Assembly (NCBI GenBank): GCA_900317055.1
Contig: ONFF01000005.1
Location: forward strand, 276,068 to 340,067
Length of the DNA: 64,000 bases
Origin: an uncultured Bacteroidales bacterium
GTDB lineage: Bacteria; Bacteroidota; Bacteroidia; Bacteroidales; F082
Direction: 5' to 3'
Shown: positions 25,262 through 31,744 of the stretch, in pieces
How the letters are laid out: each line of letters opens with the position of its first letter
How positions within the stretch are numbered: the stretch's first letter is position 1
Translations under genes and position numbers: made by a program
The notes under the pieces: generated by a model
Told to the model about the DNA's origin: nothing
What the model saw: only the letters and a program-made list of their open reading frames with translations
Databases searched by the model: none

Positions 25262-25375
25262 CAAAAAACAATATAAAATGAACACCGACAAACTTGCACT
25301 ACATCAATTGACAATGACAAAGAACCTTCCAGGAGCAAATAAACCGCTCTGGACTTCAAGTCCAGAGCGGTTTAG
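25262..25375 (+). ncRNA. Candidate small transcript ending in a perfect hairpin
   Basis: A promoter box at 25248, an A-rich leader, and a 33-base near-perfect palindrome (25341-25373, arms AAACCGCTCTGGACTT and AAGTCCAGAGCGGTTT) bound a possible transcript of about 110 bases. An ATG at 25278 opens a frame that runs through the hairpin without homology. The hairpin may instead be one of the dispersed palindromes, so both the RNA and its end are uncertain. Confidence 0.35.
25341..25373. repeat. 33-bp palindrome GGACTTcAAGTCC
   Basis: The two 16-base arms are identical inverted copies with one base between them. The core GGACTTCAAGTCC resembles in design the GGATTTGTAATCC family at 22157 and 61443. 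It can act as a terminator for both flanking transcripts. Confidence 0.75.
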
Positions 25376-25378
25376 TTT

Positions 25379-25483
25379 TCATACACCATCAACGCTGATT
25401 TTGTATAATTTATTTAATTGCTCAATCACTGCAATTTCTTCATCAGTAAGCCCGTAAAGTTGATATACAAGACTGCCGATTTC
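25379..25483 (-). pseudogene. Orphan C-terminal tail of an Eco57I-type DNA methyltransferase
   Basis: On the minus strand, directly past the methyltransferase stop and in the same frame (after three stops in a row), lies a 34-codon segment. It reads EIGSLVYQLYGLTDEEIAVI and then a short helix. The pattern LVYxLYGLTxEEIxxIE is the normal last element of Eco57I-like modification methyltransferases. The intact gene upstream has its own version of this element (IGKKYELSNVEIEYIIN). A second copy with no gene attached is best explained as what remained when the upstream part was replaced. Confidence 0.7.
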
Positions 25484-25498
25484 CTAATGAGGACATTA

Positions 25499-28414
25499 TT
25501 ACTCGTCTGAATTCCTATAGCGTATATCATAATTGATAATATACTCTATTTCGACATTGCTTAACTCATATTTCTTTCCAATATACCTGTCTATTTTGTC
25601 AATCAATGCTTTCGATTTCCGGGCATAAAAACACTTTAAACCCGATGACATTACTTTACTTTTATTATTCAAGTCACTCAAATAGGATTCATATAGTTTC
25701 TTAATGTCTTCTATTTCTTTGTCTGTGTAGGATTCATAGGGAATGGGGAACATCGCCAACTCGGATGTTCTTAAGTTATGCCAATCAGAATGAATCAACC
25801 AAAACCAGTAAAAAAGAGTACTTGACAGGCTTGCACCAACAAGATCAACATACTTTTGGGGAACGATTATATTACCTTCAGCAGCAGAATATGTAGGCTC
25901 TTTAAGAATAACTTTATAATATCTACCACCAGCTTTTCTATAATAGACGCAAGCTCCTTTATCTACATACAAGCTACCTAATTCAGTTTTTATTTTTGAT
26001 AGTTTTGACAAAATATCCTTTTCGATTTTATCTCCAATCTTTGGTATTCTTCCATTACGAACGTAATCCAACGTATTGATAAATTTTAGATTATCGAGTA
26101 ACACCCATAATGATTCGTCTGAATAACGTTTATTGATAGGTGTTGACATCAAATTAATGCATTTTGTTCCTGTTTTTCTAAATCTTATTATTGAGACTTG
26201 CTGTTCTGCACTTTCAAATATTCGTTTAGGACGATCTCCATAAGAGCTTATGTACACATCATCACAACTATCAATCAGCAACCTATGAAGTCCAGACATT
26301 GCATCTGATGCAGTAACACTAAGAGGCACGATGAATATAGAGACTCCACCGAATTTTATTGATCTATACCCTAAATCTATGAAGATGCTGAAAGTATCAG
26401 TGGAACCTTTTTGAACACCCTTAATGGTCTTTGCAGATTCATATATTTTTTTGAAAGCTGTCTTTTCTTCGTTTGTTGTTTTTGCTCCATACGGCGGATT
26501 CCCTATCACAATATCAAAACCACCTTTGGAAAACACATCATAGAACCAAGTATGCCAAAGGAAAAACTGGTCATTGCCCGAAAGGTCTAGGTCACCGAAG
26601 TCAACGTTGATATGCTGCTCTAGGAGTTGTTGCTTCACATTTTCGATAATGCGAATACGAAGGGATTGCTTTTCTTTGTGGTCGGTGCAGTCGAAGTATT
26701 GAACAAGCATGTCGCGAAGTTCTTTGCGATATACGTCAATCATGTCGTCGAAGAAGGTAAGCATCCCTGTGTCATCCGCTTTCTTTTCCGTCATCGTGGA
26801 AAGGTCAACACCTTTGTACTGTTCCAAAAGCGAATTGCCTTGCATAATCTTGAAATCAAGGTTGGGCAGTGCCTGTGGCGTTTCCTCATCAACAATGAGT
26901 GAAAGCCAAAAGCGCAAACGGGCAATGTCAACGGCACCTCGCTCGATGTCAACGCCATAGACATTCTGTTGGATGATATGCTTCTTGATTTCTGCCGCTT
27001 GGTGTTGGCTGATACCTTCCAAGGCTGTACGGCAGAGGAACAACTCTTTCAGCAAGCCCATCGGGAAGGCTCCCGAACCAATGGCGGGGTCGCATATCTT
27101 GACATCCTTCAATAATTGGTCGGTGTTCTCTGGCAAATGCTCCTGAACTTGGTGTGTGGTCACAAATTGGCGAATGGCCTCTTTTGTCGTCTCGTCCTTA
27201 ATACCTGTCTGCAAATAGGCAATGAGACTTTCGCGGCACATATAACTGACAATCTCCTTGGGCGTATAAAAAGCGCCTTTGTCCTTATTGTCCTCAAGCA
27301 GGTTTTCGAAGATACGGCCCAGCATTTCGGGGTCAACGCCAACTTCTGCGTCATCAGGGTCGTTCTCGTCAATGGTGAAGTTGTAGGAGGCAAAGAAATC
27401 GAGCAACGATTTCATGTATTTTTCGGGCAATGGAAAGTCTGTGCCATCTGCGGCTTCTTGTTCAAACAAACCGCCATTCAGATAGGGAGTGCGATACTGC
27501 GGCAACTTCTTTTCGTTTTCTGAATTTAAGTCATTGAAAAGTGGTTCAAGCACTTTGTCGATAAAATGATCTTTGTCATCACAAAGGGCAAAGAGGTTTT
27601 GAATAAACTCTGAATCACCGCTTCCCCATTCGTCATGGATGCCGACACCCAGCCAACCTTTCTTTTGCAGGAACTGGAGGAACACGAGTCGGCCCATTAG
27701 TTTCTTCACATAGTCGCGAATCGCTTTTTCAGGATTCGGAAAGCGCGAGAATTGTTGCATAATGTGCTGACAAGGCTTGCCTTCAAGACGTTCTTCCCAC
27801 TTGTTGGCAACCTTCACCATGCGCTTGCCAGTAATGTAGAAAATAATGTCTTCATACTGTTTCTTGTAACCATCGAAGAACATGTCACTTACAGCATCAA
27901 CGGAAAATGCTTTGGTCAAATCCTTTAATGAAAGTCCACTGTCACGCAATCTCTCAAATTGCTGGATGGCCGTGCGACTGCGGTGACCTTCACCCAACAG
28001 ATAGGTGAACCGTCGAGCATCGGTGGTCTCCTTCTGAAAACTACCATCCTCAGCAAACTTCCACGCTTCGCTAACGTATGAAAAGCGCAGCACACTTTCG
28101 CTTTTGCGATAGCAGAACATGAAAGCACCTGCATTGCCATTATTGCGCCATGTAGTGAGCAGCATGTCGCGTATGCCACGACGGTTGCGCTCAATGTCAA
28201 CGCTGTCGGCCAGTTCCACCTCATAGACGGCAATGGTTTGCTCGTCGCTGAGTGTTATGGTGCCCAACCATAAGGCTTGTTTGGCAAACGCACTGCTTGT
28301 TGCGACAATTGAAGGCGTGCTCCAAAACTTGATTTTGCTGCCGAAGATGTCGCGCAATAGTAGTTGCCAGTTCTGGCGGTTGTATCTCGATTCGATGATT
28401 TCTTTATAGTTCAT
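25499..28414 (-). CDS. Eco57I-like N6-adenine DNA methyltransferase, possibly with type IIG function
   Basis: A 971-residue protein. Residues 1-130 form an alpha/beta domain (AVYEVELADSVDIERNRRG) that could be a degraded or divergent nuclease-like fold. A helical region follows. The SAM-binding motif is CDPAIGSGAFPMGLL (441-455), and the catalytic motif IV is NPPYG (639-643), typical of adenine-N6 enzymes. After residue ~650 the sequence becomes markedly A/T-rich and lysine-rich (target recognition region), ending in a YELSNVEIEYI tail. The gene is 9 bases downstream of the PLD-helicase stop, so they form an operon. Whether it cuts DNA itself cannot be seen. Confidence 0.88.
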   Translation of the reverse strand: MNYKEIIESRYNRQNWQLLLRDIFGSKIKFWSTPSIVATSSAFAKQALWLGTITLSDEQTIAVYEVELADSVDIERNRRGIRDMLLTTWRNNGNAGAFMFCYRKSESVLRFSYVSEAWKFAEDGSFQKETTDARRFTYLLGEGHRSRTAIQQFERLRDSGLSLKDLTKAFSVDAVSDMFFDGYKKQYEDIIFYITGKRMVKVANKWEERLEGKPCQHIMQQFSRFPNPEKAIRDYVKKLMGRLVFLQFLQKKGWLGVGIHDEWGSGDSEFIQNLFALCDDKDHFIDKVLEPLFNDLNSENEKKLPQYRTPYLNGGLFEQEAADGTDFPLPEKYMKSLLDFFASYNFTIDENDPDDAEVGVDPEMLGRIFENLLEDNKDKGAFYTPKEIVSYMCRESLIAYLQTGIKDETTKEAIRQFVTTHQVQEHLPENTDQLLKDVKICDPAIGSGAFPMGLLKELFLCRTALEGISQHQAAEIKKHIIQQNVYGVDIERGAVDIARLRFWLSLIVDEETPQALPNLDFKIMQGNSLLEQYKGVDLSTMTEKKADDTGMLTFFDDMIDVYRKELRDMLVQYFDCTDHKEKQSLRIRIIENVKQQLLEQHINVDFGDLDLSGNDQFFLWHTWFYDVFSKGGFDIVIGNPPYGAKTTNEEKTAFKKIYESAKTIKGVQKGSTDTFSIFIDLGYRSIKFGGVSIFIVPLSVTASDAMSGLHRLLIDSCDDVYISSYGDRPKRIFESAEQQVSIIRFRKTGTKCINLMSTPINKRYSDESLWVLLDNLKFINTLDYVRNGRIPKIGDKIEKDILSKLSKIKTELGSLYVDKGACVYYRKAGGRYYKVILKEPTYSAAEGNIIVPQKYVDLVGASLSSTLFYWFWLIHSDWHNLRTSELAMFPIPYESYTDKEIEDIKKLYESYLSDLNNKSKVMSSGLKCFYARKSKALIDKIDRYIGKKYELSNVEIEYIINYDIRYRNSDE

Positions 28415-28423
28415 GGGGCTTGA

Positions 28424-31400
28424 TTATTTGGCAAAACTTTCTGACAAAATGATGGTTGCGTCGGATTCTTCCTCAGCGTGTTGGGTGTCGCGATAATAGG
28501 CGTTATAGTGGTTGGCCATCTCAAGCACCTGCTTCAAGGCTTCGTCAAAGCCCATTTTGGCCTTGCTGCCGCCTTGCCGTTGGAGGTCTTTCTGAATGCG
28601 TTGCAGTCGCTTGGCGATGTATGTGATAGTGCCTCGTTCTGCCAATTCCTTCAACTGTATTATCTTCAAGCGCGTATCGCCATCTTCTATATGAGGCAGC
28701 ATGCTATTCAGTAAACTGACAGCGGTAGTTACCTGAGCGCCCAAATTGCTACGTTGGTTTTGGTTTGATTCTTCCTCATGTATTTCTTCTTCTTTCGATA
28801 CTCGAAACTGTTTCACTGCCTTCTCCACGTGGTCGTGATGTTGCGCTATTCTTTCAACAGGTTGCTCTTCTGGTTGCGCCTTGAAATAGTGGAGCGCATC
28901 CAACACCGACAATTCCCGTGTCTGTTCGTCGTTAACCAAATAGAACAACTTTCGGAAGTTGGTTTTAAGGAATACTAAGGTGTCGCCGGAGAGGGTCACA
29001 CCTTCCACCTCACGTGGTTCACGCCCCGTCCGGCTGCGCAGCGACAACCGCTCAATGCGTTTGTATTCCTTACGGTTCTGCTGATAAAGGCATCGCAGTT
29101 CCTCATAGAAAGGAAGCTCCATGTTGCGGTCTTCCTGTTCACGCTTGATGCCCTCTGAGAAGAGCTTGTCAAGGTCGCGGTCGATGATTTCTTCAGAGGA
29201 ATAGATCTGGTTGTCCTCACCAAAAGTAGTGTGGAAAGTCTGTATCTTACTCAGCGCGATTTGGTTCAGCTTGATTTCCTTGTTACCTTGGCGCGAGGGA
29301 TAGAACACATAGTTGTAAATGGTGTTCGATGTGGAGCCGATACGGTTCACTCGACCAATGCGTTGCATTAGGCGCGTTGCATTCCAAGGCGTATCGTAAT
29401 TGATGATGATGTTCGAACGGTGCAGGTTCACGCCTTCAGCCAACACGTCGGAGGTTAAGATGATGTTGTAGTCGTCTTTTCGCAGTTTCCAGTTGGCATC
29501 GAAGTTCTCGCGAATGGTCTTGAACAGTTGGCTTCGGTTCTTGGCCGAAATCACCAGAACATCCTTTCGGTTGATACGCCTTGACAGATATTCAATGGTG
29601 TCAACAGCTTCGGAAAACACCACTATCTTCCCTTCGGGGTTACGGTCTTTTTTGAATAGTTCGTGCTTCAACAGGTCTTCAAACTTCGCAAACTTTGAAT
29701 CGTCGTCATCGTCAATGCACTCCCATTCCAACCACATTTCATCCAACAGTTCTTGGTCTTTGCGGAGCATATCAATGTATTCAGGCTTGAAATCGTCACG
29801 CATAAACACAGCATTCTTTGGGTTGTCCTCAGCTTTCTCGTTCAGTTTTTCTTCTATTTCATCATCCGTGTAGCCTAGCTCATAGAGCTTGTTGATGTCC
29901 ATGTCGGGAGCGATGAAGATTCTGTCGTTCTCCCACATTTTAATCATGTTTTCATTGGCTTGACGGAAGTTCTCTACCGAAATCTTGAAAGCATAGAAAC
30001 TGCTCTCCAATCGTTTTACCAAGCCATTCTTTCGGATGCCAGCCAAGCTGCGGCTGATGAGTTCTGCGTTATCGTAAAGACCGTTTGATTTTTCTGGTTT
30101 CAAGTAAGCGATGGCTTGATAGCGAGCGTAGTTCAACTGCTTGTCGAGCGTCATCATTGCTTTCTCAAAAAGGTCAGCCAAACGGTCGTTCAATTCATAT
30201 TCCTTTTTGATGGGCTTTGCCACTTTCGGGAAACCGTGAATATCTTTGTTGTAACGCGTGATACTTTCAATGTCTGTTCGTGTGCGTCTTACTGTCAAAG
30301 GCTTAATGACACGGTCACGTACTCGTTCAGCAAGTTTCTTGAATTGCTTCAAATCAAAGTCCTCCAGCTTTCGCATCTTTTTGAATTCCTGAATAAGAGG
30401 CGAGAAAAAAGCCGTTAGGTTGGGCACACCGTCAATAGTGCATTGACGCGGGTCTTGGAACATCAGGATTTGATAATAAAGGTCAGCGGGTGTGTTGTTC
30501 ATTGGTGTGGCTGAAATCAACATCACCTTTTTCTTATATCCAGGGATATTTCCAGTCTCAACGCGAGGCATCTTACAGATTTCCTGCAACTGTTGGAAGG
30601 CTCCTGTGGTATGGTTACGGAACTTGTGAGCCTCATCCACCAACACCAAATCATACTCGTCGGCATTCCAATAATTGTAATTGTCATCATCAAGAATCTT
30701 TGACAGACTACCATTACTCACAAACTGAGTATATTTGTCAATACCGAAATCCTTGAAGGTAGTCTTCCAGTTCTGCTCCACCGCAGGTGGATAGACCACG
30801 AGAATCTTAGTATTGTCGCGTCCGTTCTCAATGAGGAATTTCTTGGCAATCATCGTGGCGATCACCGTTTTGCCAAGACCAACCACATCAGCAAGGAAGA
30901 AACCATCATAACGAATCAGCTTCTGATAGCCTTCAATAACAGCATCCATCTGATATTCAAACTTCTCGTAACCTTCGGGCATATCAAAGGGATCGTCTTG
31001 GTCGATGGCCAGTACACGGTCTGAGAAGTATTCCATGAGCATCTTAATGTAAAGCTCGTATGGCGTGACATCACCTTTCAAATAGGTCTTGTCAAGCGTA
31101 GCCCTATAGTCCTCAGCATTGATAGGTACACCTTTGGCTTCTTCCCAAAGCAATTCAAATTCATGTTTGGCAAAGGCCACATCATCATATTGGGTCAGTT
31201 TGACATTGAACTCGTATTGCTTGTCGTCACCTATTCCCAAGCCATTGCCGCTCAGATTACTGCTTCCTGTAATGGCAGCTCCAAAAGTATGCTGGTTGAA
31301 GTTGTCAGGATAGAGGATATAGAATTTGGCATGAATCTTCTTTGAGGGATGGGCGCGGAGTTCAAGTTTCCCGTCTAACATATCTTGCACCATCTGAAGC

Positions 31401-31744
31401 ATACCGTCCTCCACTTGTTTGGTGTAGTTCGACTGTTCAATATCTTGCTTCAGCAACCTTAGACACTCTTCCTTCACCTCTTCTTCGGCACCAAAAAACA
31501 GCTCGCCTCTTTGATGGGCGTGTACAATATATTTATCCACATCAATACCGATTAGGATTCTTACTTTATTGATATTATCCAAGAAAGGACGAAGGGTAAA
31601 GTAGCCCGAGGCTCGCAAGAAGCCAACCACGGCGTCGAGGTTTTTCACTTGAGGGTTGTTTTCAAGAATGCCCTCAAACTCTTTCATCAAAGTGTTCCCA
31701 TCCCTGTTAGTGAAGAAATGGGAAGATACTGGTATCTCTACCAT
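28424..31744 (-). CDS. PLD-nuclease / SNF2-type helicase fusion
   Basis: An 1106-residue protein. Residues about 30-205 form a phospholipase-D-like domain with one HKD-type motif (HAK at 138-140, GSSN at 160-163), as in dimeric nucleases such as BfiI. From about 265 on it has the two RecA-like domains of SNF2/type I or III restriction translocases: Walker A VGLGKT (288-293), DEAH (370-373), SATPMNN (motif III) and QRIGRVNRIGS (motif VI). The C-terminal ~250 residues are helical. This pairing with an Eco57I-type methyltransferase suggests a restriction or phage-exclusion system in which the helicase moves along unmodified DNA and the PLD domain cuts. The system class is not certain. Confidence 0.85.
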   Translation of the reverse strand: MVEIPVSSHFFTNRDGNTLMKEFEGILENNPQVKNLDAVVGFLRASGYFTLRPFLDNINKVRILIGIDVDKYIVHAHQRGELFFGAEEEVKEECLRLLKQDIEQSNYTKQVEDGMLQMVQDMLDGKLELRAHPSKKIHAKFYILYPDNFNQHTFGAAITGSSNLSGNGLGIGDDKQYEFNVKLTQYDDVAFAKHEFELLWEEAKGVPINAEDYRATLDKTYLKGDVTPYELYIKMLMEYFSDRVLAIDQDDPFDMPEGYEKFEYQMDAVIEGYQKLIRYDGFFLADVVGLGKTVIATMIAKKFLIENGRDNTKILVVYPPAVEQNWKTTFKDFGIDKYTQFVSNGSLSKILDDDNYNYWNADEYDLVLVDEAHKFRNHTTGAFQQLQEICKMPRVETGNIPGYKKKVMLISATPMNNTPADLYYQILMFQDPRQCTIDGVPNLTAFFSPLIQEFKKMRKLEDFDLKQFKKLAERVRDRVIKPLTVRRTRTDIESITRYNKDIHGFPKVAKPIKKEYELNDRLADLFEKAMMTLDKQLNYARYQAIAYLKPEKSNGLYDNAELISRSLAGIRKNGLVKRLESSFYAFKISVENFRQANENMIKMWENDRIFIAPDMDINKLYELGYTDDEIEEKLNEKAEDNPKNAVFMRDDFKPEYIDMLRKDQELLDEMWLEWECIDDDDDSKFAKFEDLLKHELFKKDRNPEGKIVVFSEAVDTIEYLSRRINRKDVLVISAKNRSQLFKTIRENFDANWKLRKDDYNIILTSDVLAEGVNLHRSNIIINYDTPWNATRLMQRIGRVNRIGSTSNTIYNYVFYPSRQGNKEIKLNQIALSKIQTFHTTFGEDNQIYSSEEIIDRDLDKLFSEGIKREQEDRNMELPFYEELRCLYQQNRKEYKRIERLSLRSRTGREPREVEGVTLSGDTLVFLKTNFRKLFYLVNDEQTRELSVLDALHYFKAQPEEQPVERIAQHHDHVEKAVKQFRVSKEEEIHEEESNQNQRSNLGAQVTTAVSLLNSMLPHIEDGDTRLKIIQLKELAERGTITYIAKRLQRIQKDLQRQGGSKAKMGFDEALKQVLEMANHYNAYYRDTQHAEEESDATIILSESFAK

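Follow-up and report, generated by a model that had tools for sequence, protein, structure and literature searches.

Probable cassette exchange at the NPPY codons of a Bacteroidales adenine methyltransferase gene and the gene end behind its stop

Is the methyltransferase gene of an uncultured Bacteroidales bacterium composed of two halves with different histories, and is the coding-like stretch behind its stop codon the end that the gene formerly had? The question is raised by a 64-kb stretch of DNA, here called the window, whose first-pass annotation proposed that the half of the gene after NPPY was replaced by recombination and that the old tail remained in place. The sharp breakpoint, the homology of the tail, and the incongruent halves uphold this proposal, and the second half of the gene was very probably exchanged as a cassette, with the old gene end left behind.

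The gene product matches the profile of Eco57I-type N6-adenine DNA methyltransferases (PF07669) with 95.7 bits against a curated cut-off of 25.3 and contains the NPPY motif. Its gene starts 9 nt behind that of a helicase, for which the top PADLOC model is "HKD+Snf2", and it is the maintained adenine methyltransferase of a helicase-methyltransferase pair, which probably has a role in defence. The features of the locus are as follows.

28424..31744, minus strand: partner helicase, 1,106 aa (Helicase_C, SNF2-related), with a sub-threshold NgoFVII-like PLD nuclease domain
28,414-25,499, minus strand: methyltransferase gene, 971 aa; NPPY is residues 639-642, codons 26,500-26,489
26489..28414, minus strand: constant part, residues 1-642, closing with NPPY (motif IV); nucleotide identity to 7 of the 14 compared loci stops at 26,488-26,489
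25502..26488, minus strand: class-B module, very probably exchanged, residues 643-971, with background identity to most close relatives; holds the rest of the catalytic fold, the target-recognition region, and its own C-terminal helices
25484..25501, minus strand: stop codon TAA (25,501-25,499) and 15-nt linker with in-frame TAA and TAG
25379..25483, minus strand: orphan tail, by homology and profile score a relic of a class-A C-terminus, with the core EIGSLVYQLYGLTDEEIAVIE at 25,483-25,421
25337..25377, strand not given: hairpin immediately past the orphan tail; its 20-nt arms are 95% complementary
25278..25343, plus strand: first 22 codons of a small gene, cut off; the full 136 codons are found in locus L041
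23623..25167, minus strand: HTH regulator, ImmA/IrrE-like peptidase, and small third gene; downstream flank common to six compared loci

The three downstream genes lie in tandem and are conserved with the locus; the small third one has no Pfam match and a weak PADLOC match to PDC-S70.

Relatives of the methyltransferase at E <= 1e-30 were found in 42 of 99 genomes of the genus, its own included. A scan of named genomes contributed the best 80 loci among the matches listed, mostly rumen and gut Bacteroidales assemblies by their record names, and the set therefore leans to near relatives. Nine of 110 loci were removed as duplicates, and the close relatives all come from draft or metagenome assemblies. 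Some loci carry two names (L001, the window; L002 = L031; L003 = L032; L004 = L033; L005 = L068; L007 = L041; L008 = L035), L006 is part of L113, and L013 is a short form of L112. The nine close loci (L001 to L008 and L010) have first halves with 83-96% nucleotide identity. According to C-terminal motif rules, the 93 distinct loci with a stop codon comprise 54 of class A, ending like ESEIDRLVYQLYGLTEEEIKIVE, 12 of class B, the type of the window, ending like IIDEIDDYIGPLYGLTxEExxFIKNYELEFR, and 27 of neither class, which are outside the A/B counts.

The break at the NPPY codons

Blastn comparison of the window with 14 distinct loci, chosen by the analyst, placed the end of the match at 26,488-26,489 in seven of them (L033, L035, L036, L041, L068, L113, and L117), at 26,481 in L034 and L070, and earlier, at 26,831, in L069. 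The match continued farther in L031 (to 25,422), L032 (26,391), L066 (26,441), and L073 (25,527), all four of class B like the window. The DNA of L033, L068, and L113 is 93-95% identical to the window up to the break, where covered, falls to background after the NPPY codons (26,489), and becomes similar again at 25,483 or 25,468, where the orphan tail of the window is matched by their in-frame C-termini. A second restart with 93-94% identity follows at the HTH gene of L068 and L113; L033 yielded no blastn match to the downstream flank of the window. In total, identity resumes at the flanking genes in six loci (L031, L032, L035, L041, L068, and L113).

In bins of 20 codons, identity to the window drops at residue 640 from 77-92% to 42-61% for L004 to L008 and L010; the class-B locus L003 goes from 88 to 65%. 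For L004 to L008, first halves with 84-95% nucleotide identity to the window are followed by second halves whose proteins, where they align locally, are 24-36% identical. Across the whole set of loci, 184 pairs, which share members and are non-independent, reach at least 85% identity in the last 150 nt up to and including NPPY. In the 150 nt that follow, 175 of these pairs are below 50%, four are at 50-70%, and five remain at 70% or more; in the 175 dropping pairs, mean identity declines from 0.86 to 0.35 between adjacent 15-nt bins. In an alignment of 61 proteins, at least 90% of the rows keep the window residue at 257 of residues 1-642, at 5 of the 288 positions in residues 643-930, and at 5 of the 28 positions in the C-terminal element 931-958.

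The compositional step that had drawn attention to the gene is real, with a G+C content of 0.468 before and 0.335 after NPPY and a rise of Lys from 7.0 to 10.6% and of Ile from 6.4 to 10.3%. As the mark of a special event it does not hold, because G+C drops past NPPY in all 85 measured homologues, the window included (52 of class A, 12 of class B, and 21 others), among which the window ranks 40th in the size of the drop. A reading of the A/T-richness as the sign of a recent or special import was rejected on the same ground.

A first structure model was poor (pLDDT 65.8) and was replaced by a second one built on 61 sequences (pLDDT 79.1, pTM 0.73), in which NPPY directly follows strand 633-638. 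Within the module, the second model contains strands 686-697, 717-725, and 740-747, which are taken as the rest of the methyltransferase sheet, and C-terminal helices 898-917, 931-948, and 953-960. Positions 602-719 of a nine-sequence profile align with residues 97-211 of M.TaqI, whose recognition domain starts only near residue 243. Because of these modelled strands and this alignment, the joint is predicted to cut the catalytic domain, the module holding the end of the catalytic fold. The earlier idea of a swapped specificity half is therefore right in that the recognition region was included, but too narrow in that the unit also comprises the end of the catalytic fold.

The two halves of the gene have incongruent histories. 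Eight different modules are found in the nine close loci, a single one being shared, by the window and L002; the nearest module found elsewhere is that of L073, with 63% amino acid identity. Modules and first halves differ in identity in both directions, with 0.40 vs 0.92 for L001/L003, 0.63 vs 0.58 for L001/L073, and 0.76 vs 0.53 for L034/L086. In a tree built with FastTree from 96 first halves, some long branches of which are unsure, the B label (16 rows, truncated ones being added by their residues after NPPY) requires 10 changes, at least 8 of them forced by supported branches; shuffled labels require 14.5, and with fewer changes than in the shuffles the label is also partly inherited. Between the window and L002, dS amounts to 0.11 in codons 1-300, 0.28 in codons 301-642, and 0.59 in the module, where the identity is 0.94 and the dN/dS ratio of about 0.05 shows that the module is maintained by purifying selection. 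The two module copies look older than the surrounding first halves, which can be read as a separate arrival of related modules or as a faster change of the module.

Two relatives deviate in the gene itself. The methyltransferase of L003/L032 reads FDIVIENPPYG, with Glu for Gly before NPPYG, and its gene is otherwise typical; in L068/L005 (L068:6001-9244) the frame is broken within the module, with the C-terminal part left open in a different frame.

Gene ends behind the stop codon

Past the stop codon TAA of the window gene, the same frame contains TAA, TAG, and then EIGSLVYQLYGLTDEEIAVIEQLNKLYKISVDGV with a further stop (25,483-25,379). Against a profile of the 54 class-A C-termini this tail, which had been noticed as a second copy of the family's final element, scores 40.4 bits. 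It shares 77% identity over 78 nt with the in-frame C-terminus of the class-A gene in L068, 81% over 62 nt with that in L113, and 85% over 47 nt with that in L033; the tail is hence homologous to methyltransferase ends that are in frame in class-A relatives. The second half of the window gene recurs in only one of the nine close loci, L002 (= L031), which also has an orphan tail. A chance origin was rejected, since 20 sets of shuffled-base downstream regions (92 loci each) gave nothing above 8 bits. A search of its own genome with a pattern derived from the tail gave a single occurrence, at this locus. Translation of the tail is unlikely, with stops directly before it and a GTG at codon 19 as the first in-frame ATG, GTG, or TTG.

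The class-A tail profile, applied to as much as 2.5 kb behind each of 92 loci, detected relics that begin 1-51 nt after the stop codon's first base in 5 of the 12 class-B genes (L001, L002, L003, L034, and L066; 11-46 bits) and in none of the 54 class-A genes. The other seven class-B genes have no relic above the threshold in these regions; in L012, a stretch resembling the tail lies past the stop but scores below this threshold. The relics are of three kinds (EEIAVIE; EEVRIVGG; YDEV..DP), which suggests several events, and the B modules ahead of them are 40-47% identical, except for L034/L066 (0.60) and L001/L002 (0.94). The relics of the window and L002 differ synonymously in nine codons and otherwise in four (binomial P of 0.001 if the chance synonymous share is a quarter), and these mostly synonymous differences suggest that both tails may have been coding until recently.

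Several further matches were set apart. Those behind the class-A genes of L047, L058, L070, and L075 lie 655-2416 nt off, score 10-14 bits (50 in L070), and were left out of the count of relics at the stop; the match in L005 corresponds to the end of that locus's own gene, whose frame is broken. The reverse strand is not a clean null for the profile, with five loci above 8 bits (L098, L086, L109, L013, and L073), all of which have an invertase and a facing cassette. A second short tail-like stretch (KLIEYIYGLTEDEIKILI) at L068:10236-10300, behind an accessory gene, is possibly an older relic.

The slot between the tail and the HTH gene is empty in the window and filled differently in five relatives, namely, with a DUF4209 gene in L113 (4466-6325), a DUF4238 gene in L068 (9266-10255), a DUF4365 gene in L031 (9019-10716), an AAA_15 ATPase gene and two unmatched neighbours in L032 (9095-12157), and an unmatched gene of 503 aa in L041 (4537-6048). 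A deletion in the window is likely for this reason, and the truncated small gene at 25278-25343 is a probable deletion scar beside the orphan tail. The copies of this small gene in L068 and L035 are damaged and carry stops, and that of L041 is open over 136 codons. The hairpin at 25337..25377 was considered as a genome-wide repeat and rejected, as it occurs in one place in its own genome.

Invertase loci and competing explanations

Among 117 loci and the window, a Mpi-type serine invertase was detected in six (L073, Bacteroides propionicigenes; L086; L098, truncated at the contig end; L109; L111, Prevotella nigrescens; and L112), and further ones may be missed since many of the 117 have little flank. 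The record of L111 names its enzyme "master DNA invertase Mpi family." The same six loci, and no others of the set, have a second FDIVIGNPPY-type copy oriented oppositely to the expressed gene, two in L112 (arrangements at L111:7883-13903 and L112:5783-11791). Just before FDIVIGNPPY, their expressed genes contain an extra in-frame stretch, CGACCCTCAAAAGAGGGC, RPSKEG, in L073, L111, and L112, similar to RPSKEG in L086, and RSSNQG or PASKQG in L098 and L109. A TGA overlaps the start of the stretch in the other copies of L073, L086, and L111 and in one of L112; in L111, a 47-nt inverted repeat with 96% complementarity and arms 2.6 kb apart is located at the stretch. An RPSKEG-like stretch is also present in L099 and L104, where the available sequence ends within the gene. 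The arrangement suggests that these six loci may switch reversibly, with the extra stretch as the presumed crossover site of the inversion. Their joint would be situated about ten codons before NPPY, upstream of that of the window.

A swap by an invertase of this kind, since lost from the window locus, would have a ready model in the six relatives, one of which, L073, harbours the nearest other relative of the window's module. We nevertheless regard it as very unlikely. The 64 kb of the window lack the extra stretch, a second cassette, and an invertase; the own genome has no second cassette and no Mpi-type invertase at E <= 0.001, in a search without a positive control, and no invertase was matched in the stretches covered of the nine close loci. 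An inversion, moreover, would remove the old tail in the opposite orientation; a tail left past the new stop with its strand unchanged would not result from it. It is improbable to a lesser degree that the tail arrived together with the class-B module as one unit. Five genes with a relic no more than about 50 nt from the stop, and the module and relic common to the window and L002, would fit such a joint arrival; the different kinds of relics do not, nor do the B modules nearest to that of L034 (L086, 0.76; L012, 0.71), which lack its relic, and even then the tail would be the relic of an earlier replacement. That no exchange took place at all, the A/T-rich second half having evolved fast and the tail being due to chance or local duplication, is hardly credible. 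The G+C drop common to all measured homologues is in its favour, but the breakpoint is sharp, modules can be more alike than the first halves carrying them, the module is constrained (dN/dS of about 0.05), and the tail is single-copy.

For the exchange of a cassette, the following course is proposed. The ancestral gene of the window would have had a class-A cassette, with a protein ending like EIDxLVYQLYGLTxEEIxVIE, and this cassette would have been replaced by one of class B bringing its own stop. The left crossover would have been at or before the NPPY codons and the right one just before the conserved C-terminal element, which would thereby have been stranded beyond the new stop. We infer homologous recombination with incoming DNA as the likeliest route, because conserved sequence flanks the module on either side and because a tail moved by inversion would have changed strand; it is also likelier than inversion because the window is without invertase, second cassette, and extra stretch. 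The exchange would have changed the methylated sequence. Counting against the exchange, no donor was found that carries this module in almost the same DNA. The class-B genes lacking a relic above the threshold, the partial inheritance of the B label, and the draft state of the close relatives are on the same side. Codon identity across pairs was used to look for a homogenised stretch of DNA ahead of NPPY and hardly showed one: synonymous identity in the last 20 codons before NPPY was 0.57, compared with mostly 0.46-0.57 and 0.62 in one bin, so that a homogenised crossover arm cannot be seen at long range; codon identity in the tail scatters from 0.36 to 0.70. The right junction is too imprecise to tell homologous from illegitimate joining.

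Known systems and significance

Exchange of recognition domains is already known (PMC3077401, PMC3983042). According to the relevant passages of these articles, Type I, IIG, and III systems of Helicobacter pylori exchange recognition sequences between alleles by recombination at conserved flanks, which alters their specificity. Such domain movement (DoMo, between TRD1 and TRD2 of one gene) and TRD exchange resemble the exchange in the window family in that the recognition part is replaced at conserved flanks, and alleles with the same flanks and catalytic part but different recognition parts are what the close loci display. The DoMo passages deal with S subunits containing two TRDs and repeats x/y, whereas in the window a single module begins right after NPPY within the catalytic fold of a one-chain methyltransferase and a C-terminal element is stranded; repeats at the locus are weak, the best of 41 nt having copies 68-71% alike (among 20 of 29 families listed). 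At the invertible hsdS loci of Type I systems, diversity in specificity arises from silent cassettes and from inversion (PMC4948785, PMC7394358). Such an arrangement resembles that of the six invertase relatives and not that of the window; the parts of an invertible phase-variable methyltransferase are present in L073, L086, L098, L109, L111, and L112. The hsdS genes are separate S genes, whereas in the six relatives the methyltransferase itself would be cut before NPPY, by a Mpi-type serine invertase.

The best fold match of the second structure model is PglX/BrxX of BREX (9ewz_C, E of 9.8e-18), followed by 8c45, but the methyltransferase reaches 54.3 bits against the NCBIfam PglX cut-off of 500, and no other BREX gene was found among the five genes scanned. 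Likewise, the helicase attains 139 bits against the DrmD cut-off of 610 for DISARM. The Type ISP enzymes LlaBIII/LlaGI, the Type IIL enzymes DrdV and MmeI, CamA, and M.TaqI match the methyltransferase part in fold or sequence, with only 10-15% identity in the fold alignments, and their partner genes differ from those of the window. The best PADLOC matches of the methyltransferase are IIG models, mostly in the methyltransferase part.

As far as the literature was searched, the NPPY joint, the stranded tail, and the occurrence of members with and without an invertase look new. The passages searched (including those of PMC11892184, PMC10333322, and PMC11868660) contain nothing on invertase loci of this methyltransferase family, although absence in print is not claimed. 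A broader reading, which we put forward tentatively and consider possible rather than probable, is that the NPPY loop is a general exchange joint, that one pool of cassettes, made up of the end of the catalytic fold, a recognition domain, and the C-terminal element, circulates between loci with reversible switching by a Mpi-type invertase and loci that, like that of the window, replace the cassette by recombination, and that stranded tails are footprints of replacement. If this were true, a stranded tail could act as the right-hand homology arm for the next replacement.

With nine close loci and eight second halves, the family provides a natural experiment on possible changes of specificity in a defence-type methyltransferase. 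The position of the joint inside the catalytic domain bears on how such enzymes recombine and yet still work, and the presumed switching of the invertase relatives is open to direct test. Stranded tails are a record of past exchanges within a single genome.
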